This document shows positions 14,292-26,760 of a DNA stretch of 64,000 bases, one piece after another (positions within the stretch are counted from its first letter, which is position 1; every line of letters begins with the position of its first letter). The stretch spans positions 1-64,000 of the forward strand of contig JAJDDN010000006.1 in NCBI GenBank assembly GCA_029260295.1. Direction: 5' to 3'. A model generated the notes under the pieces. The model was not told the DNA's origin. It searched no databases and saw only the letters and a program-made list of their open reading frames with translations. The DNA is from Phycisphaerales bacterium. Its GTDB lineage: Bacteria; Planctomycetota; Phycisphaerae; Phycisphaerales; UBA1924. The position numbers were made by a program, and so were the translations under genes.

Positions 14292-16724
14292 TCAAGGGCA
14301 TCCTGCCGAGAACGCACTGAGGAACGAGACGATATCGTTGAAATCGAGAAATCCATCCCCAGTGAAGTCCGCGATCGGATCATTGTTGCCAAAGGCGGTG
14401 ATGAAGATGACGAAGTCGAAGAAGTCGAGGTCGCCGTCGCCGGTGAGGTCTGCGTAGCATGGGACCGGGTTGGTATCAATGACATACGCTGCTCCGGCGT
14501 TGTCTCCATTTTCGTCATCTGCGTAGGCGCCGGTGACGATGAAGCCGTTATCGATTGCGATTGTGGACCCGAATCGGGCGCCGTTTGAAGATGCCCATGG
14601 GAGTAGCTTGTCGAGTTGCTCGGATGTGGTTGCATCGAAAAGATACGCGGAACCCGATTCTGTCTCGGAGCCGTCATTGAGCATTGATCCGACTGAAACG
14701 ATGTTGTTGTCGATGTCGATAGAGCTTCCGAACCGGTCGCCGTCGGCGAGATCGTCCGGGATGAGTGTTGCGATTTGGATGCCTGTGGGGACATCGAAGA
14801 GGTAGGCCGCTCCTGATTTGATACCAACTTGGTTTGCCCATATCGCGCCGACGGCGACGGTATCGTTGTCGATGGCGATGGAACTGCCGAAGAATGCTTG
14901 GGCTTGCCCGTCATCTGGGAGGAGTTTGGCGAGTTGGGTGCCTGTGGCGGCATCGAAGAGGTAGGCGGACCCTGAGTCTGTGCCGGTGTCATCGTCGTGG
15001 CGTGATCCGACGGCGACGATGCCGTTGTGGATTGCTACGGAGATCCCGAAGCGGTCATCGAAGGCGCCGTCGTCGGGGAGGAGCTTTCGGATTTGGGCGC
15101 CGGTTGTCGCATCGAAGAGGTATGCGGAGCCTGATTGGAAGCCATTGTCGTCGTCGTACCAGGACCCGACGACGGCGATGTTGTTGTCGATGGCGACGGA
15201 GATCCCGAACCAGTCTTCGGGGGCGCCGTCGTTTGGGAGGAGCTTGGCGATTTGGTTGCCGGTGGTGGCGTCGAAGAGGTATGCGGATCCGGACTTTAAG
15301 CCGTTGTCGTCGTCCCAGTTTGCGCCGATGAGGACGGTGTTGTTGCTGATCGCAGTTGAGTTGCCGAAGAACTCTGCGGGCCCTCCGTCGTCTGGAACGA
15401 GTCTGGCGTACGGGTTTGTGGAGGTTACATTGTAGAGGTATGCGGAACCAGAGAAGATGCCGTGATCGTCTTCTCTTGAAGCGCCGATGACCATGATGTC
15501 GTTGTCGAGTGCGACTGAGTTTCCGAAGTTGTCAAAGAATGTGCCGTCTTCGGGGAGGAACTTGGCGATTTGTGTTGTGGTGGAGATTGTGAACGCGTAT
15601 GCGGATCCGGTGTTGTTCCCATTGGCATCGTCGGTGGGTGCTGAAGTGGCAAGGACGCCGTTGTGCAGGGCTACCGCAAAGCCGAGCTGATCTCCATCGG
15701 CATCGGGTTCGGTGGTGTGGATTTTGCCGATTTGAACCCCTGTGAATGGGTTGAAGGTATAGACCGATCCGGAGCTCGATCCGTTGACATCGTCCCCGAA
15801 GGCTCCGACGGCGATTACTGTGTTGTCGAGAGCGATCGAGGTCCCGAAAAACTGGCCCCGTATATCATCGTTTGGTTGTACTTTGACGAGTTGGACGCCT
15901 GTGAAGGCGTTGAAGAGGTATGCCGCTCCCGTGCTGGTGTTGACTTCGAACGCTGTGACTGCTGCTACGCCATTGAAGATATCGACAGAGCGTCCAAAGC
16001 TACGAAGTACTTCGCCGTCGCTTGGGAATAGTTTGGCGAGTTGAACGCCTGTGATTGCATCGAAGACATATGCGGAACCCGAGTTCTCCCCGTTGTCGTC
16101 GTCTGCGGGTGCTCCAACCACAACGAGCCCGTTGTGGATGGCAACTGTTTCACCGAAGTGGTCGAGCTCTGCACCGTCGTTTGGGAGTAGTTTGACGATT
16201 TGCTGCCCTGTGGCGGCGTCGAAGACATAGGCCGAGCCAGAGGCAAGGCCGTTGTCGTTATCGAAGTGTGCTCCTACGGCAACGAGTCCGTTGTGGATGT
16301 CGATTGATATTCCGAAGAAATCAATTGGGGCCCCATCGTTTGGGAGGAGTTTGAAGAGCTGGGTGCCTGTGATTCGGTCGAAGAGGTAGGCCGAGCCCGC
16401 CCGATCGCCGTTGCTGCTGTCGGCCCAGGATCCGATCGCGACGATGTTGTTGCTCATCGCTACGGAGGTGCCGAATCGTTGTTGGAAGGTGTTGTCAGCT
16501 GGGAGGAGTTTGGCTACTTGCGTATTTGTCGCTGAATCGAAGATATAGACGGCACCGGAGAGGTCGCCCCTTGGTGCTCCGACCGCGATAAATCCATTAT
16601 CGATTGCGATTGAATCGCCAAAGTCTGCTCCGCGGAGCGGGTTTGGGGCTTTGATTTTCTGTCCCCAGGCCGGGGCGGCGAGAGCGATGGTCACGAGGGC
16701 GGACAGAAGGATTCGTTTTTTCAT
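14292..16724 (-). CDS. Exported 14-repeat FG-GAP beta-propeller protein with dockerin-like tail
   Basis: 810 residues. A signal peptide (MKKRILLSALVTIALAAPAWG) is followed by 14 repeats of about 53 residues, each of the form FG.SVAI.N..VAVGA..DD..G..SGSAYLFDA.TG.Q..KLLP.DGA. Fourteen repeats would fold as two seven-bladed propellers. Acidic DDDNG loops probably bind calcium. The last 55 residues are the dockerin-like tail with two calcium loops (DLTGDGDLDFFD and DFTGDGFLDFND), opened by a Cys and closed by AGCP. AAAGGA lies nine bases before the ATG and a perfect 22-bp palindrome lies 20 bases upstream. Probably a surface or extracellular protein. It is first in order from the left of six genes with this tail. 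Confidence 0.85.
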   Translation of the reverse strand: MKKRILLSALVTIALAAPAWGQKIKAPNPLRGADFGDSIAIDNGFIAVGAPRGDLSGAVYIFDSATNTQVAKLLPADNTFQQRFGTSVAMSNNIVAIGSWADSSNGDRAGSAYLFDRITGTQLFKLLPNDGAPIDFFGISIDIHNGLVAVGAHFDNDNGLASGSAYVFDAATGQQIVKLLPNDGAELDHFGETVAIHNGLVVVGAPADDDNGENSGSAYVFDAITGVQLAKLFPSDGEVLRSFGRSVDIFNGVAAVTAFEVNTSTGAAYLFNAFTGVQLVKVQPNDDIRGQFFGTSIALDNTVIAVGAFGDDVNGSSSGSVYTFNPFTGVQIGKIHTTEPDADGDQLGFAVALHNGVLATSAPTDDANGNNTGSAYAFTISTTTQIAKFLPEDGTFFDNFGNSVALDNDIMVIGASREDDHGIFSGSAYLYNVTSTNPYARLVPDDGGPAEFFGNSTAISNNTVLIGANWDDDNGLKSGSAYLFDATTGNQIAKLLPNDGAPEDWFGISVAIDNNIAVVGSWYDDDNGFQSGSAYLFDATTGAQIRKLLPDDGAFDDRFGISVAIHNGIVAVGSRHDDDTGTDSGSAYLFDAATGTQLAKLLPDDGQAQAFFGSSIAIDNDTVAVGAIWANQVGIKSGAAYLFDVPTGIQIATLIPDDLADGDRFGSSIDIDNNIVSVGSMLNDGSETESGSAYLFDATTSEQLDKLLPWASSNGARFGSTIAIDNGFIVTGAYADDENGDNAGAAYVIDTNPVPCYADLTGDGDLDFFDFVIFITAFGNNDPIADFTGDGFLDFNDIVSFLSAFSAGCP

Positions 16725-16743
16725 AATTAATGGTCCTTTATAC

Positions 16744-16765
16744 AGTATTCAATATATTGAATACT
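16744..16765. promoter_or_regulatory. Perfect 22-bp palindrome in front of the 14-repeat propeller gene
   Basis: The half-site AGTATTCAATA is followed immediately by its exact reverse complement, ending 20 bases upstream of the ATG at 16724. It sits in an AT-rich stretch that also offers TATAAA as a -10-like box on the minus strand. A dimeric repressor or activator site is the simplest reading. A hairpin in the mRNA leader is the alternative. Confidence 0.55.
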
Positions 16766-16824
16766 ACATTTATTCCCACTTGAAAATCAATGAAAAAACA
16801 ATAATCCTGATAACTCAATACTTT

Positions 16825-18486
16825 CTAAGGGCATCCGGTGCTAAAAGCGGTGAGGAAGGCGGCGATGTCGAAGAAGTCGAAGCTGCCGTCGCCGGTGAAA
16901 TCGGCGATTGGATCGCTGCTACCAAAGGCGGTGAGGAATGCGGCGATGTCGAAGAAATCCAGCGTGCCGTCGTTGGTGAGGTCGGCGGGGCAGGAGTTGC
17001 AGATGGCTTCGACCATGACGAGGCGGTCTTCTTCGAGGGGGAGTTGGTAGAGAGAGCCATCGGCGGAGTAGAAGTACCAATCATTGAGCCCGCCGATGGT
17101 TGGGGTGCCGGTGAAGGTGTCGGTGAACTCGACGGCGGCGGTCCATGAATCGGTGAGCGGCCCGGCGGCCCAGCCGTCGGTGTTGGGGGCGTCCCAGGTG
17201 TGGCGGATTCGCAGGACGCTTGTGCCTTCGTCGCGGTAGAGATCGAATGGATCGTCTCTGAAGGCGTAGTTTGGGGTGATGCCTGTGAATGTGGCACGCA
17301 TCTCGGTGCGGCCTCCGGCGTTGGTGGTCGCGGCATCGTGGACCATGACCAATGACTGGCCGCCGGGCGCGACGGTCATGAACATGTGGGAGCGGTCGAG
17401 GGTGAGGAAGGGTTGTCCGCCGTGGTAGTACTGTTCGTTTTGTTGCCAGCCGTAGACTGTTGTGAGGCTTTCGTTGAACTCGTATGGGGTGATGTCGGTG
17501 GCGATGGTGTCAAAGACCCCGCTGCCGGCGACGGTTTCTACTTTGAGTGTCCAACTCATTTCATAGGCGGGCGCGATTGTTTGTGGGTTGCTGGTTGCTT
17601 GGCGGGAGAGGGCATCGGTGATGATAACGCGGTAGTCGTGGGCTTGGTTGAGCGCGGGGGCGAGGAGTGTAGGGAGGATTTCGCCATCGATATCTGCAAA
17701 GGAGCCCATCGGTGGTGCGTGCTGCCATTGGTAGAGGAATCCTGGGAGTCCTTGGTTTGGTGTTGATGTGATTGCGATTGGGTTGCCGTAGCACTGGGTG
17801 TCGGTGGATGCGGCTGCTGTGACTGTTGGGGGCGGCGGGATTGTTGTTGGGGTGAAGTTGTCGAAGGCGAGGCCGATGGAGCCGGCGTTACCGGTGTAGC
17901 GGAGGAGGATGAAGTGGATGTCGGCGGTGGCGTGGTCGAAGAGGAACCCGAATGCTCGACCGTCACCGAAGCCGTTGGGGCCGCCGCACTCGCTGATGCC
18001 GTTGGGTGCGGTGAGCACGACGGTGTCGATGACGGCCATGGTTGCGTCGAGCGCTTCGATGGTCCATTCTTCGAAGGTCGGTCCGGTGCGGCGGTCGATG
18101 TCGAGGATCGCGCCGGCGGCTTGTGCGACGGGGTCGGTGTAGGTGAGCAGGAGTGTGCCGGCTTGGTTGCTGACGGCGTTGTCATCGGTGAGGAATGAAT
18201 CGCCAATGCCTTGCCCGTCGAGCGGGGTGTCTGAGCCGCAGCCTGCGAAGGCGGTTTGTGGCGCGCCGACCTTGGCGATTTGGGGCGAGCCGATGGAGAG
18301 GAGGGTGATGGGATCGACGAGATCGAAGCGGATGCCGTGCTCTGCTTCGTATTCGTCAGATATGAGTTGTTGGTCGGTAGTTGGGCTGCCTCCTGGGAGG
18401 GTTTCGAAATCGATGGCTTGGGCGTTTGCCGAACCGGCCAGAGCGAAAGCTGCCAGAATGCTTAGAGTTATTGATTGCTTTATCAT
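16825..18486 (-). CDS. Exported protein with dockerin-like C-terminal tail
   Basis: 553 residues from the ATG at 18486, with AGAGGGA upstream; a frame seven codons longer is less likely. The signal peptide ends near ALAGSANAQ. Residues about 25-230 form a beta-rich domain (IDFETLPGGSP start, Cys pairs in AGCGSDTP and SECGGPNG), resembling planctomycete secreted domains that describe a range or date-like FETLPGG protein; no firm name. An Ig-like segment (VTAAASTDTQCYG) and a second beta domain follow. The tail opens with CPADL, has two loops (DLTNDGTLDFFD, DFTGDGSFDFFD) and ends STGCP. Expected outside the cell or in the periplasm. Confidence 0.8.
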   Translation of the reverse strand: MIKQSITLSILAAFALAGSANAQAIDFETLPGGSPTTDQQLISDEYEAEHGIRFDLVDPITLLSIGSPQIAKVGAPQTAFAGCGSDTPLDGQGIGDSFLTDDNAVSNQAGTLLLTYTDPVAQAAGAILDIDRRTGPTFEEWTIEALDATMAVIDTVVLTAPNGISECGGPNGFGDGRAFGFLFDHATADIHFILLRYTGNAGSIGLAFDNFTPTTIPPPPTVTAAASTDTQCYGNPIAITSTPNQGLPGFLYQWQHAPPMGSFADIDGEILPTLLAPALNQAHDYRVIITDALSRQATSNPQTIAPAYEMSWTLKVETVAGSGVFDTIATDITPYEFNESLTTVYGWQQNEQYYHGGQPFLTLDRSHMFMTVAPGGQSLVMVHDAATTNAGGRTEMRATFTGITPNYAFRDDPFDLYRDEGTSVLRIRHTWDAPNTDGWAAGPLTDSWTAAVEFTDTFTGTPTIGGLNDWYFYSADGSLYQLPLEEDRLVMVEAICNSCPADLTNDGTLDFFDIAAFLTAFGSSDPIADFTGDGSFDFFDIAAFLTAFSTGCP

Positions 18487-18557
18487 TAATGATCCCTCTT
18501 GACTCAAGATGTTTCCGAGATGGAGGGGTGATTCTTCAACCCGGAGCCTGTTTATAT

Positions 18558-18590
18558 TAAAAAGCCGACGACCCTATGGTCGCCGAAGCT
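18558..18590 (-). terminator. Terminator after the three-domain dockerin-tagged gene
   Basis: On the minus strand GGTC and its flanking bases pair with GACC across an ATAG loop, inside a longer imperfect GC-rich stem, and five T residues follow (18559-18563). It lies about 45 bases after the stop at 18633. Confidence 0.7.
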
Positions 18591-18632
18591 TTGTGCTTTG
18601 TCAAGAAAATTCGAACCTTAGAAACCGCTGCT

Positions 18633-20900
18633 TTATGGGCATCCTGCTGAGAATACGGTAAGGAAGGTAGCGATGTCGAAGAAATCGAAGCTGCCATCAC
18701 CGGTGAAATCTGCGACAGGGTCGTTGTTGCTGAAGGCGGTGAGGAAAGTTACGATGTCGAAGAAGTCGAGTGCTCCGTCGCCGGTGAGGTCAGCCGGGCA
18801 CGCAACCGGGGTGAAGAAGACCGAAGTCGAAGATACGAAGCCGGTGATGTTGGTTGATCCAAGACCGAATCCAGGGCAGTCGTCGGCGAAGCTGATCGGC
18901 GATGCGACGAGGTTGATGTCCATCTCGTATATTTCGCCGGACTCGAGAACATCGGCGGGGATGGTGACCGAGTTGGTCGCTGGATCGAGCACGGCCTCGA
19001 ACGGCTTTGTGTCGGTCCCGGTGTTGAATATTTCGAAGAACACATGGGTGACATTGGGGCTTGGGAGTGCCCAGTGGATTGTGATTGGTTGGGTTGGGTC
19101 CATGCCGTTGAGATCGGAGAACGAGGTTCCGATGAGGTAGGGAACATCCGGGTAATCATCGGCACCGAATGTGACGACCTGATCGCGAGTGCCCAATGCG
19201 CCGTCTTGGATGTGGATGGTGTAGGACATGGAGCTGGGGAAGCTGGCGTCGAGGCCTTCTTTGGATCCGAATTCTACATTTGTTTGGTCCAGTTCCCAGA
19301 TGCCTGGCTCGTCTTCGAGGAAGGGGATGGTGGTGATGCCGTTGGTTACATGCCCTGATGCAAAACCGCCGTCGAATGTATCGAGGAATCCGTCGAAGCG
19401 GTAGAGCAATGGCAAGGTTGGCTGTGTGTTGTCGGCGGACTGGGTGTAGATGATTTCTTTGATGACGGCTGATTCTTCAACATCGGTGCAGCCGAGGGCG
19501 GCGGTTGTGATGTCGGCGAAGGTGATTGATTCGTACCCGTTGAGGCCTTGGGCCTGGATGCCGAATCCGGGGAATGGGCTTCCGGTGAAGGCGTTGCCGT
19601 TGACGAATCCGATCTCGAAGTGGTATTGGGTATCCGGGGACATGGTGTTGGCCGGGATCAGGAAGTCGCCTTGGCCCGAGGGAAAGAACATGTCGAGAAC
19701 GCAAGAATCGTTGTTGGGGTCGTAGATGGCGAAGATGACAAAGTCTGTGAGGGGGCCTGGGTTGACCCAATCGACAAGGAGGGGTTGGGCGGTATCGATA
19801 TTCTGGATGTCGTTAAAGCTTGCTGGGGTGAAGGCCGGGGGAGCGGGATAGATTTCAGTGCCTGTGGGGAAGCTTTGAGACGAGTTTCCCAGAGCACCAC
19901 CTGAGATTGCAAAGGTGTAACTGATGGCTCCCGGATATGCGGCGTCGAGGGATGCTTGGTCTGGGTACCCGATGAAGATCCCCCACTCTCCTGGGAAGTC
20001 TTCGGTCATCGGGTTGCTGTTGACCGTTGCGGAGGTGGCGTCGCCGGGGGCCATGTTGATTGTGGTATCGACGACATACTCGAATGGTGTTGTTGGTGGT
20101 GATTGGGAGGTTTGCTCATAGTCGCGGGCTTTGGTGAACCAGAAGTCAACAACACCGGAGTTTCCGAGGGTATCGGTGGTGAACTCTGCGATGGTGACCG
20201 ATGCGTACCCGGCGAGGCCGTTGGAGGAGGCACCGAATCCGGGGTTTGGCTGGCCTTGGGTTTGAACCGCGTTTGCGAACACGATTTCTATTTCATACAG
20301 TTCGTTTGGATTGAGCGTATTTGCAGGGACGACGAAACTGGTTTGTGATACGGGGAGATCGACATCAACGATGTAGTCGTCAGTTGTAGGTGAGTAGATC
20401 GCAAAGGCCATGTAGTTGGTGTTTGAATCGGCGGCGGACCATTCGACGATGAGGGGCTGGGTGGTGTCTGCGTTCTGGGCGGCGTTGTAGCTTGCTGGGG
20501 TGAGTGTGGGGGGCGCAGGGTAGATGGCCGGGAGTGTGAGATTAAGTGTTTCGTCGCGGGAACCGAGGGTGCCGCCTTGGAGATGGAGGTTGTATGCAGT
20601 CATTGGGTAGGCGGCGTCGAGGGCCCCTTGGGAAGCGAAGGAGACTTCAAGATCCCACTCGCCCGGGTACTCTTCGATGAGGGGCTGGCCGTTGACGGTC
20701 ATCATGGTTGCGTCGCCGGCTTCCATTTCGCCGAAGGAGTTGAAGTTGTAGGTATGGGGAGCGATCGGTGGAGTAATCGAATTCTGAGCATAGAGACGGA
20801 TTTTGGCGACATCGTAATCGAAGACATCAGCGGCGGCGTGGGAAATGCCCATCGCTAGGATTCCTGCAACACATGCGGCGACTTGATTGAATCGGGTCAT
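18633..20900 (-). CDS. Exported protein with three about 190-residue repeats and dockerin-like tail
   Basis: 755 residues from the ATG at 20900, which has AGGAG seven bases upstream. A signal peptide (CVAGILAMGISHAAA) is followed by three related domains of about 190-210 residues. Each shows a PGEW block (EEYPGEWDLEV, EDFPGEWGIFI, EDEPGIWELDQ), then LDAAYP or LDASFP, GGTLGSRDE-like turns, an AQNADTTQPLIVEW-type block, and a P.PGFG segment near its end. The second half of each domain looks like a fibronectin-type beta sandwich. The tail is CPADLTGDGALDFFD ... DFTGDGSFDFFD ... SAGCP. Function unknown; it may be an adhesive or structural surface protein. Confidence 0.8.
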   Translation of the reverse strand: MTRFNQVAACVAGILAMGISHAAADVFDYDVAKIRLYAQNSITPPIAPHTYNFNSFGEMEAGDATMMTVNGQPLIEEYPGEWDLEVSFASQGALDAAYPMTAYNLHLQGGTLGSRDETLNLTLPAIYPAPPTLTPASYNAAQNADTTQPLIVEWSAADSNTNYMAFAIYSPTTDDYIVDVDLPVSQTSFVVPANTLNPNELYEIEIVFANAVQTQGQPNPGFGASSNGLAGYASVTIAEFTTDTLGNSGVVDFWFTKARDYEQTSQSPPTTPFEYVVDTTINMAPGDATSATVNSNPMTEDFPGEWGIFIGYPDQASLDAAYPGAISYTFAISGGALGNSSQSFPTGTEIYPAPPAFTPASFNDIQNIDTAQPLLVDWVNPGPLTDFVIFAIYDPNNDSCVLDMFFPSGQGDFLIPANTMSPDTQYHFEIGFVNGNAFTGSPFPGFGIQAQGLNGYESITFADITTAALGCTDVEESAVIKEIIYTQSADNTQPTLPLLYRFDGFLDTFDGGFASGHVTNGITTIPFLEDEPGIWELDQTNVEFGSKEGLDASFPSSMSYTIHIQDGALGTRDQVVTFGADDYPDVPYLIGTSFSDLNGMDPTQPITIHWALPSPNVTHVFFEIFNTGTDTKPFEAVLDPATNSVTIPADVLESGEIYEMDINLVASPISFADDCPGFGLGSTNITGFVSSTSVFFTPVACPADLTGDGALDFFDIVTFLTAFSNNDPVADFTGDGSFDFFDIATFLTVFSAGCP

Positions 20901-21339
20901 CTTTTGGCTCCTGAGCGATTGATGAGGTGGTTGGATCAATAGTAGAGAATTGGCGACCTCAATAAAGACAATTCGTCTGGAAATGCCCAGAATACCTCAG
21001 AAACCATTGGGTAAGGGGGTCCGTTAACCGGTGATTACACTGGATCTTGGGATGCGACCGGCCTCATTGGGATCGATCTGATCCGGGATCGCTTGGACTC
21101 CGGCCGCGGTGTTCTTGTTGCCCAGTTCTCTCTGATACATACCGGGTTCTTCTGCGGCAGGAACATGTCGGGCATCGGTGCGCCAACGAATCAAATCCAA
21201 CTTGTGCTCAACAGGAAAGCAAGTGGAATCTGCTAAACAACTGGCACTTGTTCTTTTTGGTGTCAGTGTTTAGTTGCGATCTGTGTTCTCGGTCGTGATT
21301 GGTTGATTCGTAAAACGCACACTTGAAGAAAGGAACCAC
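20901..21339. other. Divergent intergenic region with a start-less open frame
   Basis: 439 bases separate the minus-strand three-domain gene from the plus-strand PEP-CTERM gene and should hold both promoters. A plus-strand frame is open from 21015 to the stop at 21236 (73 codons) with no start codon near its beginning. Its residue make-up looks coding-like (GDYTGSWDATGLIG, VAQFSLIHTGFFCG), but I recognise no family. It may be the remnant of a lost gene or chance. Confidence 0.3.
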
Positions 21340-21945
21340 ATGCTTTACCAAAGAAACAACTCACGACACCACCGTTCGATTACTGGAACTGTCGGCATCG
21401 GTTCTTTGGTCATCGCTTTGGGATCGGGGCCTGCGATGGGGGATCTTGTGTATGAGCTTGAGGCTCTCGAAGGCGAGTTTGCGGGATCGCATATTTCAGG
21501 GTTTGTTACGCTGTCAGATGCGATGGCGGGGACGAGCGTTTGGAACCTGGCCCAGGCGATCAGCTTTGACTTTGCATCTGATTATGGGCCTGGGTACAGC
21601 TGGGACATGAGTGATCTGATTGTGTCCAACGATGTCGCGTTCTTGGGCGTGATCGGTGATGCGGTGCTCCGGCCTACTGCTGTCGGGGGGCATCCTGGGT
21701 ATGGACCCGACTGGAGGATGGACACGGAGCCGCACACCATGCCCGGGAGCATTGCCCTTGGTCTTGGGGCGGACAACGGATCGCCTATCTGGAACCTCGT
21801 TGAGCTTGGCGGCGACGGGAACCTTGATTACCGTACAGCGATGAGCCCCGCGGGCGCACCGCAATGGCAACTGACTCTTGTTCCATCGCCTGCAACGGGC
21901 TGCTTGCTGTTGCTTGGATTTGCCGGGATGAAACGGCGGCGTTAA
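21340..21945 (+). CDS. PEP-CTERM-type exported protein
   Basis: 201 residues, with AAAGGA before the ATG. An N-terminal signal (GTVGIGSLVIALGSGPAMG) precedes a beta-rich domain of about 150 residues (GDLVYELEALEGEF, DFASDYGPGYSWD, SDLIVSNDVAFLG). The end is a PEP-CTERM-like sorting tag: VPSPATG, a hydrophobic stretch CLLLLGFAGM and a final KRRR. Such tags are cut and anchored by exosortase (EpsH/XrtA type). No exosortase is in the window. The gene is the only plus-strand member inside the dockerin-tagged array, and its stop overlaps the stop of the convergent neighbour by four bases (TTAA). Confidence 0.75.
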   Translation: MLYQRNNSRHHRSITGTVGIGSLVIALGSGPAMGDLVYELEALEGEFAGSHISGFVTLSDAMAGTSVWNLAQAISFDFASDYGPGYSWDMSDLIVSNDVAFLGVIGDAVLRPTAVGGHPGYGPDWRMDTEPHTMPGSIALGLGADNGSPIWNLVELGGDGNLDYRTAMSPAGAPQWQLTLVPSPATGCLLLLGFAGMKRRR

Positions 21946-23735
21946 GGACAGCCCGCTGAAAAAGCGGTCAGGAATGCGCTGATGTCGAAGAAATCAAATA
22001 TCCCGTCGCCTGTAAAATCGGCGGCGGGAATTCCTGCTGAAAATGCGGTGAGAAATCCGCTAATGTCGAAGAAATCGAGGATGCCATCGGCGGTGAGGTC
22101 GGCGGGGCATAGGGGGGCGTTGATCGTTGCGGTGGACTGGAGTTGGATGGGATCTCCCCCGCCCGAATGGATCATCGAGAGGCGGGTTGTGTGCTGGCCT
22201 GGGAGAACCGCGGCGGTGTCCCACTGGGCGAGGGCCCCGTTGTTGACTGGCGTGGGCACCGGGCCATCGATCATGATCCAGTCTGGGTCATCTAGGAACT
22301 CTACATCAAAGGACACAAACTCGAAGAAAGATTGGGGCCCGGTGATCATGCGGGCTGATCCGGAGACGGGGACGATGTCGCCGCGGGTAGCAGTGAGGGG
22401 ATTGAGAGCGGCGATAAAGATCGCAGCAGAATCGTGGGCACGGGGATCTCCTGTGGTTGTGGAGTTGTAGAACGCGGAGATCGAATCGCCGGTGGCGTCG
22501 ATGACGGGGCTCATGAATGAGGAGCTTGCGCCAACAAAAAGCGAGTTGTCTTCGATGGTGATCTGGGTCAGGCAGAGCGACTGGAGGAAGAATAGTTGTC
22601 CTTGCCCGTTTGTGTGCATGTGTCCGCCTGAGCCATCGCAGATCGATTGCTCGACGGTGACCACGGCGAGGTCGTCTGAGAAGACTTCGCCGAAGATGGT
22701 GTTGCGCATAGTCAGAATCGTCTGGCCCCAGGCGTAATAGTTCCAAGTCTGAACGGTTGAGTTGACAAACCGTTGCTGTACTCCGCCCCAGATGAATGTT
22801 GAATCGGCGATATGCATCCCGTTTGCTACGCCGGAGATTTCGAAGCTGTCGTTGCTTTCGAAGATGTTTCCAACGACCCGGAGTTCTGAGTCGCGGATGG
22901 TGGCGTCTGAGCCGTCGCGGGCCATGATCGCCCACATTGATTGGGTGCATTCTTCGATCCGTGTGGTGTAGGGGATCCCCGACGCCCAGGATGATTTGGA
23001 GTTGAGCTCGAAGATCGCGACATCGCCAGGGCTGGGGAGGGTTGTGTCGACGATCGAGCCGTCGGGTAGGGTTAGCCAGAAGAGTACTGTCTCACACCTA
23101 TACAGCAAGAGCGATGAAGTCCCGATCTGCAGAAACTCTCCGGCGTTTGTGATATTGGATAGTTCCACATCCCCGCCATCGAACAGTGCCCATGTCGCGA
23201 AGCCGTTGACAACCTCGACATCGAACCAGACGGCTTTTGCACCGATTGCCATGGAGAAAGAATGCCCTCCTCCATCGATCACGGTCCCGTGGAGTTCTAT
23301 TGAAGACTGCTCCCAGACGAGTATTTCAGATTCGTAGCTGTAAGTCTGTAGAAACTCAAGACGGCCGGCGTTTCCTACCAGTTGACCGTCACCTACAAGA
23401 TGGATATCGCCATTAATTCTGAGCGTCCCGGTTGGGGCGATTTCAACTCGTCCGTCTCCGATGATCTGAAGATCGCCTTGGATGACCTCGAGCCCTGAGA
23501 CGACGAGGACTTCGCCCGGGGTATCTCCTACGACCATTCCTACCGCTGCGTTGCCGAGCTGGGGGTCATTTGGCTTGGCGATGTTGTATTGGTTCGGGGT
23601 GTTCAAGATCCTACGGAAATCTGGGGAGACGACCGATCGATTCTCGGGTGGGGCGACCTCGATGGCCGCGATGACCGTGGCATTAGTCAAGAGGAGCTGA
23701 GATGCACAAACAAGGTATGGAATCACATTCTTCAT
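21942..23735 (-). CDS. Exported beta-helix-like protein with dockerin-like tail
   Basis: 597 residues. A signal peptide (VCASQLLLTNATVIAA) is followed by about 420 residues of short beta strands with regular hydrophobic spacing (GDLQIIGDGRVEIAPTG, LRINGDIHLVGDGQLVG, VELSNITNAGEFLQIG). This pattern suggests a right-handed parallel beta helix as in polysaccharide-binding or pectate-lyase-like proteins. A beta-sandwich-like segment follows (LTATRGDIVPVSGSARM). The tail is CPADLTADGILDFFD ... DFTGDGIFDFFD ... SAGCP; its first loop has Ala in place of Gly. No catalytic residues are evident. The nearest GGAG is 16 bases before the ATG, so the start is less certain. Confidence 0.78.
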   Translation of the reverse strand: MKNVIPYLVCASQLLLTNATVIAAIEVAPPENRSVVSPDFRRILNTPNQYNIAKPNDPQLGNAAVGMVVGDTPGEVLVVSGLEVIQGDLQIIGDGRVEIAPTGTLRINGDIHLVGDGQLVGNAGRLEFLQTYSYESEILVWEQSSIELHGTVIDGGGHSFSMAIGAKAVWFDVEVVNGFATWALFDGGDVELSNITNAGEFLQIGTSSLLLYRCETVLFWLTLPDGSIVDTTLPSPGDVAIFELNSKSSWASGIPYTTRIEECTQSMWAIMARDGSDATIRDSELRVVGNIFESNDSFEISGVANGMHIADSTFIWGGVQQRFVNSTVQTWNYYAWGQTILTMRNTIFGEVFSDDLAVVTVEQSICDGSGGHMHTNGQGQLFFLQSLCLTQITIEDNSLFVGASSSFMSPVIDATGDSISAFYNSTTTGDPRAHDSAAIFIAALNPLTATRGDIVPVSGSARMITGPQSFFEFVSFDVEFLDDPDWIMIDGPVPTPVNNGALAQWDTAAVLPGQHTTRLSMIHSGGGDPIQLQSTATINAPLCPADLTADGILDFFDISGFLTAFSAGIPAADFTGDGIFDFFDISAFLTAFSAGCP

Positions 23736-23799
23736 ATGAATCTATTGGGATACTCCGAGTTTGTTTTTACCCACGGACTAAAGAACCGTTTTTGGAAAG

Positions 23800-25209
23800 T
23801 TATGGGCACCCGTTGGAGAAGAGTGTCAGGAACGCGCTGATGTCGAAGAAGTCAAGCACGCCGTCAGTGGTGAAATCGGCGAGGAGATCTCCATCACCAA
23901 AGGCGGTGAGGAAAGCGGAGATGTCGAAGAAATCGAGGGTTCCGTCGCCGGTGAGGTCGGCGGGGCATTGGGCTGCGCAGTTGAGTTCGATGAGGTATGC
24001 AGATCCGGCGTCTGGCCCCCACCAGAAGTCATCGTTGCCGTCGGCGCCGATGATGGCGAAATCGTCTGATACAGCAACCGAGTAGCCATAGAAATCCCCG
24101 CCTTCTTGGTCGGAGGCGGTGAGCTTATTGTCAAGTGTCCAATCGCCTGCGGATCGCGAGTATGCGTAGGCCGCGCCGGCGTTGAAGAGCCCCGAGGCGT
24201 CCCGCTCGCCCCACGCTCCAACGATCGCGCGGCCGTTGTGGATGGCGACATCCTGGCCGAAGAACTTGGAGTTGGTTGGATCAAAGGCGTTGAGTTTGGT
24301 GTGCTGAGACCACCCGGCACTGTGCTCGAAGATGTAGGCAGAGCCCGAGCGGTTGGCAGAATCATCGTCGTAGCGGGCGCCGATGATTAGGGCGTTGCCG
24401 CTGATGTCGAGGCGTTCGCCGAACTGGTCGTCGGTTGCGCCATCGCTGGCGGTGAGCTTGGCGGTCTGGCTCCATGCGCTTCCATCAAACTCGAAGATGT
24501 AGGCCGAGCCGGAGGTTGAGCCGTTGTCGTCGTCGCCGTCGGCCCCGACCAGGACGCGGTTGCCGGAAACAGCGACATCGATCCCGAAGTGGTCGAACTC
24601 GGCGATGTCATCTGAGACAAGCTGGGTATCGAATGTCCATGCCCCGTCAATGAACCGGTATACATACGCGGCCCCGGAGTTCGAACCCATTGAATCGGTC
24701 AGCGAAGCACTCAGGACGATGATGCCGTTGTCGATGTCTACAGCGGATGCGAAGTTGTCGCCGGCGGCGAGCATCGGGGGGACGAGCTTGGCGGTCTGGG
24801 TCCATGTGCCTTTGATCTTTGTAAAGACATAGGCGGCTCCCGCGCCCGAGCCTGCGTCGTCATCTCCTGGGGTTCCGATGACGATGGTGTTGTTGTGGAT
24901 CGCGACACTGTCGCCGAAGCCGTCGGAAGTTCCAAGTCCGATGGCAGCGAGTTTTTGTGTTTCGTTCCAGCCTGAGCCATTGAAGGTGAGCACATAGACC
25001 GACCCGGAATCAGAGGCCCCGGCACTGTCATGCAGGGAGCCAACTACTGCGGTGGTTGAATCGATCGCGACGGCCCACCCGTAGCCATCGAAGGCCTCGC
25101 CGTCGTCTGCGACCATCATCGAGACCTGGCTGGGGGAGCAGGGCTGGGCGTGGGCAACCGATCCTGACAGAGCGATGAGTGCGGCCGGGAGGTACAAACG
25201 GGTATTCAT
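23800..25209 (-). CDS. Exported 7-repeat FG-GAP beta-propeller protein with dockerin-like tail
   Basis: 469 residues. The signal peptide ends in GSVAHAQ. Seven repeats of about 55 residues (FG..VAI.N...VGA..DD...SGSAYIFE..G.W.QT.KL.A.DG) match one seven-bladed propeller, half the number in the gene at 14292-16724 and clearly the same repeat family. The tail is CPADLTGDGTLDFFD ... DFTTDGVLDFFD ... SNGCP. The acidic loops suggest calcium binding. It is 64 bases from its upstream neighbour in the array. Confidence 0.85.
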   Translation of the reverse strand: MNTRLYLPAALIALSGSVAHAQPCSPSQVSMMVADDGEAFDGYGWAVAIDSTTAVVGSLHDSAGASDSGSVYVLTFNGSGWNETQKLAAIGLGTSDGFGDSVAIHNNTIVIGTPGDDDAGSGAGAAYVFTKIKGTWTQTAKLVPPMLAAGDNFASAVDIDNGIIVLSASLTDSMGSNSGAAYVYRFIDGAWTFDTQLVSDDIAEFDHFGIDVAVSGNRVLVGADGDDDNGSTSGSAYIFEFDGSAWSQTAKLTASDGATDDQFGERLDISGNALIIGARYDDDSANRSGSAYIFEHSAGWSQHTKLNAFDPTNSKFFGQDVAIHNGRAIVGAWGERDASGLFNAGAAYAYSRSAGDWTLDNKLTASDQEGGDFYGYSVAVSDDFAIIGADGNDDFWWGPDAGSAYLIELNCAAQCPADLTGDGTLDFFDISAFLTAFGDGDLLADFTTDGVLDFFDISAFLTLFSNGCP

Positions 25210-25273
25210 GCTGGGTATCTCTGGATGGGGTGCTGTGCAGGTGGAACGAATTTGCCGAGGGGTATGGTATCAG

Positions 25274-25310
25274 AAAGAACCGCACAATCCAAGGGGAATT
25301 GTGCGGTTCT
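25274..25310 (-). terminator. Hairpin after the VCBS-repeat gene
   Basis: A 13-bp perfect stem (AGAACCGCACAAT and its complement) with a loop of about nine bases lies 40 bases after the stop at 25349. The following T tract on the minus strand is short (TTTCT), so termination may be partial. Confidence 0.6.
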
Positions 25311-25348
25311 GTGGGATCAATTCGTGATATTTTGAGTGTTCTACAAGG

Positions 25349-26677
25349 TTATGGGCACCCTGCGGAGAATGCGGTGAGGAATGTGCTGATGTCGAAGAAA
25401 TCGAAGCTGCCATCGCCGGTGAAGTCTGCGACGGGGTCCTGATTCCCGAAGGCGGTGAGGAAGGCGGAGATGTCGAAAAAATCGAGGGTGCCGTCGCCGG
25501 TGAGATCTGCGGGGCAATCCTGCGGCGCACACTGGTTGACTACAACCTGCATTTCACCATAAAACACATTGGCAATCACAAGATCAATGTCTGAATCACC
25601 ATCAATGTCAGCAAGGCTTTCGCCACCCGGGAAGAAGTCAAGAATGACTTGCTCTTGGAACTGGAGCGCACCGGATCCGTCATTTGTTAATACAACAATT
25701 CGCCCTTCATTGCTTCCCTGGGTTGCCATGGCATCTATATGCCCATCCCCATCAATATCTTGAGTCAAAACATTGAAGAAAGTGCCGGCGCTCTGAGCGA
25801 ATGGGAGGATCGCCTGATAGGTTGCATCCCCGTTTCCTAGAAAGACCCCAATACTCTCTGGGGGAACATTGTTCGTTCGCCCAGCATTTGCGACAACGAT
25901 ATCTAGAACTCCATCGGAGTTCATATCTGCAACGCTCGCATCCTTTGGCCAGTGACTCCCCGAGCCCGCTACAAGTAGTGGAAAGTTAAATGTTCCGTTT
26001 CCGTTGTTGAGCATAACTCCAACCCCATTGGACCCATCCCGGACGACAACTAGGTCAAGATCGCCATCGTTGTCCGCATCGCCAATATCTAAACTCCGAG
26101 GCGTTTGCCCTGATCCATATACAACAACCGGAGCAAAGACTGCGGGGCCGCTGTTGATGTAGACACCTACATTCCCCGAGGAAGAGTTGGCAACAGCGAT
26201 ATCTAAATCTCCATCGGAATCGAGATCGCCAATGACTATATGACTCGGGTTCTGCCATGTGCTGTATACAACACGGTCTGCGAATGATCCGTCGCCGTTA
26301 TTAAGCATGACCGACAGGCCATCTTCGTCCCCAAGGCCAGTCGAGTGCCGGAATGGTGCCGCAATATCTAAATCGCCATCGTCATCAAGATCACCGAGTG
26401 CGAGATCCCGTACTCCCTTTCCAATGAAGAATCTCAGAGGAGACGCAAAGCTTCCGTCTCCATTGTTCAAGAAGACATCTAGCGATTCATCTGAGGAACC
26501 ATCAAAGTACACCAGGAGATCCATATCCCCGTCGGAATCTACATCACTTAGACAGCTATTCACGGGGAGTGGCCCGGTCAGAAGAGGCGTTGCCGAGACA
26601 GTCCAATCGGCACAAGATTGCGCTGCAGCGTTGTGCGAGAGAATGACACACGCGAATAACTGAACTCGTCTATACAT
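25349..26677 (-). CDS. Exported VCBS/FG-GAP 7-repeat protein with dockerin-like tail
   Basis: 442 residues from the ATG at 26677, which has AAGGGG upstream; a frame seven codons longer is less likely. The signal peptide ends near SHNAAAQ. Seven calcium-type loops of the form D.D.DGD.D recur about every 50 residues (DVDSDGDMDL, DLDDDGDLDI, DLDSDGDLDI, DADNDGDLDL, DMNSDGVLDI, DIDGDGHIDA, DIDGDSDIDL), each followed by GV.LNNG.G.F. This is the VCBS/FG-GAP pattern of integrin-like propellers. The tail is CPADLTGDGTLDFFD ... DFTGDGSFDFFD ... SAGCP. It is the rightmost member of the array. Confidence 0.85.
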   Translation of the reverse strand: MYRRVQLFACVILSHNAAAQSCADWTVSATPLLTGPLPVNSCLSDVDSDGDMDLLVYFDGSSDESLDVFLNNGDGSFASPLRFFIGKGVRDLALGDLDDDGDLDIAAPFRHSTGLGDEDGLSVMLNNGDGSFADRVVYSTWQNPSHIVIGDLDSDGDLDIAVANSSSGNVGVYINSGPAVFAPVVVYGSGQTPRSLDIGDADNDGDLDLVVVRDGSNGVGVMLNNGNGTFNFPLLVAGSGSHWPKDASVADMNSDGVLDIVVANAGRTNNVPPESIGVFLGNGDATYQAILPFAQSAGTFFNVLTQDIDGDGHIDAMATQGSNEGRIVVLTNDGSGALQFQEQVILDFFPGGESLADIDGDSDIDLVIANVFYGEMQVVVNQCAPQDCPADLTGDGTLDFFDISAFLTAFGNQDPVADFTGDGSFDFFDISTFLTAFSAGCP

Positions 26678-26760
26678 ATTTGGGTCACCCCTTGCCACTA
26701 GTTTCGAATATCTGAATTGATCTACGACTATAGAATATAATACATTTCCATGATGAGACC

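Follow-up and report, generated by a model that had tools for sequence, protein, structure and literature searches.

A Cys-closed dockerin-type tail with genome-specific dialects on exported proteins of Phycisphaerales: a candidate docking tag

Dockerins are known from cohesin-based complexes, and a different group of C-terminal tags, those of the PEP-CTERM, GlyGly-CTERM and MYXO-CTERM types, combine a membrane helix with a basic end and are processed. Sorting-tag systems of this second kind include PEP-CTERM with exosortase, GlyGly-CTERM with rhombosortase, and MYXO-CTERM (accessible parts of PMC1569441, PMC3237569 and PMC11980579). Within the Planctomycetes, dockerins on non-cellulase proteins have been described from freshwater Nemodlikiaceae, where the proposed complex, the planctosome, is built on cohesin modules (accessible part of PMC6461901). 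Here we analyze a six-gene array whose products all end in one Cys-closed tail of the GC-type dockerin family; it lies in the window, the opening 64 kb of contig C6 from a Phycisphaerales genome of 2.9 Mb in 8 contigs (the own genome below). The tail resembles the PEP-CTERM-like tags in being a single C-terminal tag placed on many exported bodies, but it is built as a two-loop domain, and its occurrence does not follow that of exosortase. It shares with the planctosome the presence of dockerins on non-cellulase planctomycete proteins; however, GC-type tails number from dozens to more than 100 per genome, and cohesin went undetected in 24 of 29 tail-rich genomes. We propose, with a probability of roughly 60%, that this tail serves as a docking tag and is selected by a partner particular to each genome.

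All six tails of the array match the NCBIfam model NF041540 (dockerin_GC, 'GC-type dockerin domain-anchored protein') with scores of 44.6-48.2 bits, against a curated cut-off of 29. This bears out the initial annotation, which had named a GC-type dockerin, and at the same time disposes of the idea that the tail might be a new kind of domain: NCBI already catalogues it, and within its family the array is nothing unusual. The model names a domain, to which the own tails belong; no open-licence PMC paper was found under its names, and we know of no report there on a partner, the Cys pair or dialects. The description 'Gly-Cys at or near the C-terminus' is taken from the name of NF041540 and not from the notes of that model. 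In all six array tails, and in 72 of the 84 distinct own-genome tails read, GCP is the exact terminus, in agreement with the flush C-terminal placement noted earlier.

With type-I dockerins (PF00404) the tail shares two similar loop-helix halves, the spacing of the calcium loops and recognition positions in the same place. It differs from them in its end Cys, its flush C-terminus, its FF/L face, the lack of a detectable cohesin in the genome and a PF00404 score below the gathering cut-off (13.8 bits for tail 6, against 22.9). PF00404 is not among the Pfam matches of the six whole array proteins at that cut-off, and at E<=1 it matches 59 of 81 tails (best E 1.8e-6). Dockerins are among the solved structures nearest in sequence, but they score weakly (2y3n_B, E 0.0013). 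With positions numbered from D1 of each calcium loop, 381 of 414 tails parse into two loops whose residues 1, 5 and 12 are acidic; since the parse pattern itself prescribes D at both 1 and 12 and one of D, N or E at 5, nothing can be read from these positions. By this loop pattern the tail probably binds calcium. A few single-loop tails keep both end Cys (L148:46-1302 in the own genome, L073, L120 and L170), and the FF dialect described below also occurs in L148, L073 and L120.

A genome-wide profile search recovered 105 NF041540 matches at E<=1e-3 in the own genome, 98 over the cut-off and 7 below it, with exactly 6 in the window, so the tail is used throughout the genome and is not confined to the array locus. 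No match was found in 14 control genomes, which argues that the tail does not arise by chance. Three genomes of one genus (G002, G034 and G095) have at least 150 matches each at E<=1e-3. A sample of 149 genomes across the phylum yielded any match in 9 and a match over the cut-off in 5, the four heavily loaded ones all belonging to the window's own family; in a sample of 61 genomes of the order the corresponding counts are 35 and 30. The tail is present in 16/16 sampled genomes of the own family (at least 30 matches each) and in 13/15 of family f77 (at least 16 each; G166 and G176 are the negatives of that family), which makes 29 tail-rich and 32 tail-poor genomes in the order; six further genomes of the order outside these two groups have 1 to 9 matches. 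Public relatives of the tail (79 loci kept) come mostly from metagenome-assembled genomes labelled Phycisphaerales, some merely Planctomycetota or bacterium, and suggest by their labels that the window belongs to that order. Ordinary dockerins (PF00404) occur in 57/61 genomes of the order and dockerin pairs are also seen in G182, of another family; this suggests that the GC-type tails are one branch, Cys-closed and flush, of a dockerin repertoire spread across the order.

The evidence that carries the proposal comes from comparing tails within and between genomes. The own tails mostly read D9 F10 F11 D12 I13 S/A14 A15 F16 L17 T18 A19 F20 in both halves, and other genomes use other dialects: DFFDVQ-FL in G187, NTLDVLAFLNAY in G199, TIFDFLAFQN-F in G095, NFADLN-VLS-F in G165 and -AADLA-LLSAW in G149. 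The 10-11 pair alone is FF, TL, IF, FA or AA depending on the genome, with LL in dockerins of another family. Inside genomes the entropy is 0.29-0.75 bits at positions 10, 11, 14 and 17 and 1.4-2.6 bits at 7, 15 and 18. Between genomes the information is highest at 14, 13 and 10, followed by 11, 18, 16 and 8; ranked by the excess over a shuffled baseline, the order becomes 13, 14, 10, 16 and 11. The dialect table covers 15 genomes, the seven with fewer than 9 usable tails being left out, and tails from some further loci and one G202 stretch stand outside the tables. In the accessible part of PMC6780208 the residues by which type-I dockerins are recognized by cohesin are 10, 11, 17, 18 and 22; position 14 would lie on the same face of the helix, judging from its periodicity. 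The dockerin pairs of G182 have a dialect of their own, LLDLSILASNF.

The two halves of a tail speak the same dialect. Their majority residues are identical at 10, 11, 13, 14 and 17 in 15/15 genomes and agree at most other positions in 10 to 15 of the 15, while at positions 2 and 8 they agree in just 3/15 and 4/15. Hence the halves can be told apart and are not recent duplicates of each other, yet they change together.

Such uniformity might be a by-product of recent duplication of tails or of gene conversion among them, with no selection on the face, and there is some trace of this. Certain tails coincide in their loop-helix residues (five of the 41 tails of G199 form one such set, the 26 of G165 include two pairs, and G095 and DDGE have a pair apiece), and in 4/4 genomes tested codon identity is higher than saturation would give. 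Over 29 conserved positions in 80 own tails it is 0.494, against 0.429 expected from the codon usage of the same proteins; the values are 0.715 and 0.651 for G199, 0.720 and 0.645 for G165 and, with the largest excess, 0.686 and 0.562 for G095. However, synonymous codons are thus close to saturation and the free positions have diversified, which argues that the uniformity at 10, 11 and 14 is largely maintained at the protein level; moreover, the halves have kept their differences at 2 and 8 while remaining the same at 10, 11, 13, 14 and 17. We judge gene conversion unlikely as the main cause of the uniformity, in spite of the excess in all four genomes, and copying without selection as a full account very improbable. 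The own-genome excess lies mainly at F10 and F16, mostly as TTC. At F10 this codon is nearly exclusive (73/75 and 74/78 in the two halves) and the adjacent F11 is mixed; the preference perhaps avoids runs of T.

A comparison of tails on one orthologous body adds a second line of evidence. The 'choice-of-anchor B' model TIGR04312 matches 9 of 83 own body stretches (some of the 83 cut at the 5' end) at E<=1e-3, with one place in the genome over the cut-off; the rest are probably partial propeller matches. The model has a match in 36 genomes, and the comparison covers the best ortholog from 30 of them, all over the cut-off; this protein closes with a dockerin pair, Cys-bearing or not, in 23/23 tail-rich genomes and in 0/7 tail-poor ones (six of family f79 and G176 of f77). 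For four of the 23 (G161, G200, G180 and G194) no loop pair could be parsed and the assessment was made by eye, and the end Cys are not present in all 23. The ortholog bodies are 37-55% identical to the own body. Five tail-poor orthologs were compared in full: in four, homology stops at residue 720-724 of the own 781, just before the tail, and in the short ortholog from G162 it stops at residue 442; all five extend another 98-148 residues beyond that end. At positions 8-20 the ortholog tails of seven genomes have a mean identity of 0.57-0.86 to same-genome tails on other bodies and of 0.25-0.36 to the tails of orthologs elsewhere (single best 0.65), unrelated tails elsewhere giving 0.26-0.39. 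By these sequence comparisons the tail is a property that follows the genome, not the body.

The two end Cys provide a further constraint. Among 381 parsed two-loop tails from 22 genomes, 354 have both, 19 neither, 2 the N-terminal one only and 6 the C-terminal one only; one of these six is a parsing artefact and actually a pair, so that the discordant total of 8 includes it. This table leaves out 33 of the 414 tails, 27 without a parsable loop pair and 6 open-ended. Within single genomes the counts for both, N only, C only and none are 10/1/0/10 in G149 (n=21, p 3e-5) and 14/1/0/8 in G170 (n=23, p 2e-5). The joint presence or absence of the two residues within these genomes points to a disulfide clasp between the Cys before loop 1 and that after helix 2. 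Among the 19 Cys-less tails, 4 have internal Cys, two of these with a Cys pair. In type-I dockerins the head-to-tail clasp is the stacking of Tyr-5 on Pro-66 (accessible part of PMC4728124); by analogy, the disulfide would take over this role. In the TIGR04312 ortholog tails L342, L352, L356 and L367 (from G170, G190, G196 and G156) Cys residues flank the linker between the halves instead of the tail ends.

The proteins so tagged have diverse bodies. The first 25 of 49 families in the own genome include FG-GAP and LVIVD propellers, subtilases, M12B, M10 and M43 peptidases, MauG-type haem proteins and a multihaem-type cytochrome. By a crude rule, 44 of 48 full-length tailed open reading frames have a signal-peptide-like start, against 69 of 133 others. 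Together with the types of body this lends weak support to export of the tailed proteins and is compatible with a location at the surface.

We then consider what might read the tail. PF00963 detects cohesin in 5/61 genomes of the order, and a local profile, built from seven of the eight cohesin-like domains found in the order (L059 being left out), in 6/61. No cohesin, and hence no cohesin-bearing scaffoldin of the kind that defines a cellulosome or planctosome, was found in the own genome (G000) by either, or by the local profile even at E<=10, in keeping with the initial annotation, which saw none near the array; at the same threshold the local profile gave one match (E 0.53, in G187) in five tail-rich genomes. 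Among 29 tail-rich genomes either search finds cohesin in 5 (G170, G196, G152, G191 and G203) and none is detectable in the other 24. Cohesin is thereby rejected as the general partner as far as its sequence is recognizable, a strongly diverged cohesin being possible. By eye, dockerin-like loops are also present in several of the proteins in which these cohesins occur. Four loci of G203 and G191 (L057, L058, L061 and L062) combine, again by eye, a cohesin-like domain with HYR-like and dockerin-like parts and resemble the planctosome adaptor (accessible part of PMC6461901).

The flush C-terminus, the sharing of one tag by many bodies as in PEP-CTERM or GlyGly-CTERM proteins, and the tail on a choice-of-anchor body might instead be taken to indicate a sorting signal cleaved by a dedicated protease or transpeptidase, and the initial annotation had allowed for such a processing enzyme. 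We give this hardly any credence. Sortase and exosortase signals are recognized by a transmembrane helix, a basic end and an enzyme that tracks the tag; the six array tails are complete two-loop domains with no transmembrane stretch and no basic end. Sortase was found in 0/61 genomes of the order, as the earlier note of its absence near the array would lead one to expect, and exosortase in 61/61, tail-free ones included, so that exosortase does not track the tail. Both are thus rejected as readers by their distribution; rhombosortase, myxosortase and disulfide-forming enzymes lay outside the search. The suggested receptor family co-occurring with the tail did not emerge from the cohesin, sortase and exosortase searches: a common reader of some kind can be argued from the dialects, but the receptor itself was not found.

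In G182 a PEP-CTERM-like end follows directly after the dockerin pair in 10 of 15 loci read (L321-L335, 12 of them parsed), a combination for which we found no precedent in open-licence PMC papers. None of the 414 GC-type tails is joined to such an end. PEP-CTERM-like genes are scattered among GC-tailed genes (six in the own stretches by a motif rule: window 21340-21945 on the plus strand, L145, L150, L154, L155 and L157). The two tags thus appear to be in use side by side.

The mechanism that we favour is as follows. A dockerin-type tag, closed Cys to Cys, would end about 100 mostly exported proteins of the own genome, each half consisting of one calcium loop and one helix. Both halves would present one recognition face, made of F10, F11, S/A14 and L17 with T common at 18; with the same face on both, either one could dock to a partner, as is the case for type-I dockerins. 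All tails of a genome would share that partner, which would change along with them between genera and may be a receptor without recognizable cohesin sequence or, less likely, other tails; such docking may keep exported proteins on the surface or within a matrix.

Several observations weigh against this proposal. Positions 13 and 16, which we read as helix core, also vary strongly between genomes, so the change spans the face and part of the presumed core. Recognition position 17 departs in 1/15 genomes and 18 varies freely inside genomes, so that the dialect rests on 10, 11 and 14, whose exposure as a face in the GC-type tail we infer from sequence. Rescue by half 2 of tails whose half 1 has lost FF, as simple dual binding would have it, is not borne out: among 80 own tails FF is in both halves of 70, in one half of 6 and in neither of 4, where 0.6 would be expected if losses were independent, and this excess indicates that whole tails decay together. 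The comparison tails are mostly top-scoring ones and 8 of the 15 dialect genomes (named metagenome-assembled genomes) were recruited by a CPADLT/LDFFD pattern, which makes them look somewhat more uniform than they are; dialect played no part in choosing the own set (84 distinct tails among the 105 matches, 80 tabulated with one duplicate). The comparison also ignores kinship among the genomes, many matches in some relatives, e.g. G175, lie below the NF041540 cut-off, and no partner was found by the searches of the order's genomes.

Some of these same observations would suit a tail that binds nothing and is merely a calcium-stabilized folding or protective cap, its dialect being that of a founder tail preserved by fold constraints. 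Calcium loops are common stabilizers, the searches returned no partner, and core positions 13 and 16 vary between genomes as much as the face. Yet a cap does not readily explain why 10, 11 and 14 differ across genera and are nearly fixed within each genome, with 7, 15 and 18 drifting and synonymous sites near saturation, nor why the tail on an orthologous body comes and goes with the genome; we regard it as unlikely. Alternatively, the hydrophobic faces might pair with each other, linking exported proteins into a matrix with no receptor at all. Such tail-tail assembly would account without cohesin for the uniform dialect and for halves that change together, and the own-genome face, with FF and L17, is hydrophobic. 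However, the AA or TL at 10-11 in some genomes is less obviously sticky, and type-I dockerins use this face for cohesins (accessible part of PMC6780208), which makes self-assembly a distinctly unlikely explanation.

Returning to the docking tag, its fuller form would be a large extracellular docking system of Phycisphaerales-type bacteria, in which dozens to more than 100 exported proteins have a disulfide-clasped, twofold-symmetric tag whose code is re-set in each genus together with one non-cohesin partner. We offer this extended version tentatively, at somewhat less than even odds. Within the literature searched, the co-occurrence of the Cys, the dialects with their codon control, the tail swap on orthologs and the order-wide comparison of the tail's distribution with those of cohesin, sortase and exosortase appear to be new. 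A hundred or more dockerins without a recognizable cohesin would imply either an unrecognized receptor fold or self-assembly. If the docking system is real, dockerin recognition would have been solved a second time, and nature would provide a set of tag-receptor pairs that differ from one another. The dialects predict that a tail binds the partner of its own genome and not that of another genus; if they do represent matched pairs, they would explain how these bacteria organize exported propellers, peptidases and cytochromes, and could furnish orthogonal, disulfide-stabilized connector pairs for protein assembly.

The array itself consists of six minus-strand open reading frames between 14292 and 26698 (Table 1). 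Their calls and the alignment of their ends agree with the initial description of six genes with one common 55-residue, two-loop, Cys-closed tail: from C-x-AD to the terminal GCP, 33 of 57 aligned columns are invariant, and tail 1 departs in having Y for P after the first Cys, besides the substitution given in the table. The bodies, earlier called unrelated, do differ and include propellers, but two share FG-GAP_2 and a third has FG-GAP_3, and two of the six have no Pfam family at the gathering cut-off. Tandem beta-sandwich repeats had also been proposed; one fn3 match is over the cut-off, and the repeats themselves are seen by eye.

Table 1. Genes of the array and their tails, in window coordinates
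Position	Strand	Feature	Basis
14292..16724	-	FG-GAP_2 propeller, 810 aa (amino acids), signal-peptide-like start, GC-type dockerin tail	Open reading frame, NF041540, Pfam
14295..14459	-	Tail 1, 55 aa, Cys to GCP; N replaces second F in half 2	
16825..18507	-	560-aa protein, no Pfam family at cut-off, GC-type dockerin tail	Open reading frame, NF041540, Pfam
16828..16992	-	Tail 2	
18633..20939	-	768-aa protein, one fn3 match, repeated units by eye, GC-type dockerin tail	Open reading frame, NF041540, Pfam
18636..18800	-	Tail 3	
21340..21945	+	PEP-CTERM-like exported protein, 201 aa, without GC-type tail, no Pfam family	VPSPATGCLLLLGFAGMKRRR end
21942..23735	-	597-aa protein, beta-helix-like by eye, no Pfam family over cut-off, GC-type dockerin tail	Open reading frame, NF041540, Pfam
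21945..22109	-	Tail 4	
23800..25209	-	FG-GAP_2 propeller, 469 aa, GC-type dockerin tail	Open reading frame, NF041540, Pfam
23803..23967	-	Tail 5	
25349..26698	-	FG-GAP_3 propeller, 449 aa (442 aa from ATG 26677), GC-type dockerin tail	Open reading frame, NF041540, Pfam
25352..25516	-	Tail 6	

The last gene has two possible starts, GTG at 26698 or ATG at 26677, the latter being the end of the array as initially annotated. The plus-strand open reading frame inside the array, whose product we take to be PEP-CTERM-like from its VPSPATGCLLLLGFAGMKRRR end, overlaps the 3' end of the neighboring minus-strand gene by 4 bases. At the edge of the window, a large-subunit ribosomal RNA gene on the minus strand (1-1879) is interrupted by the contig end.

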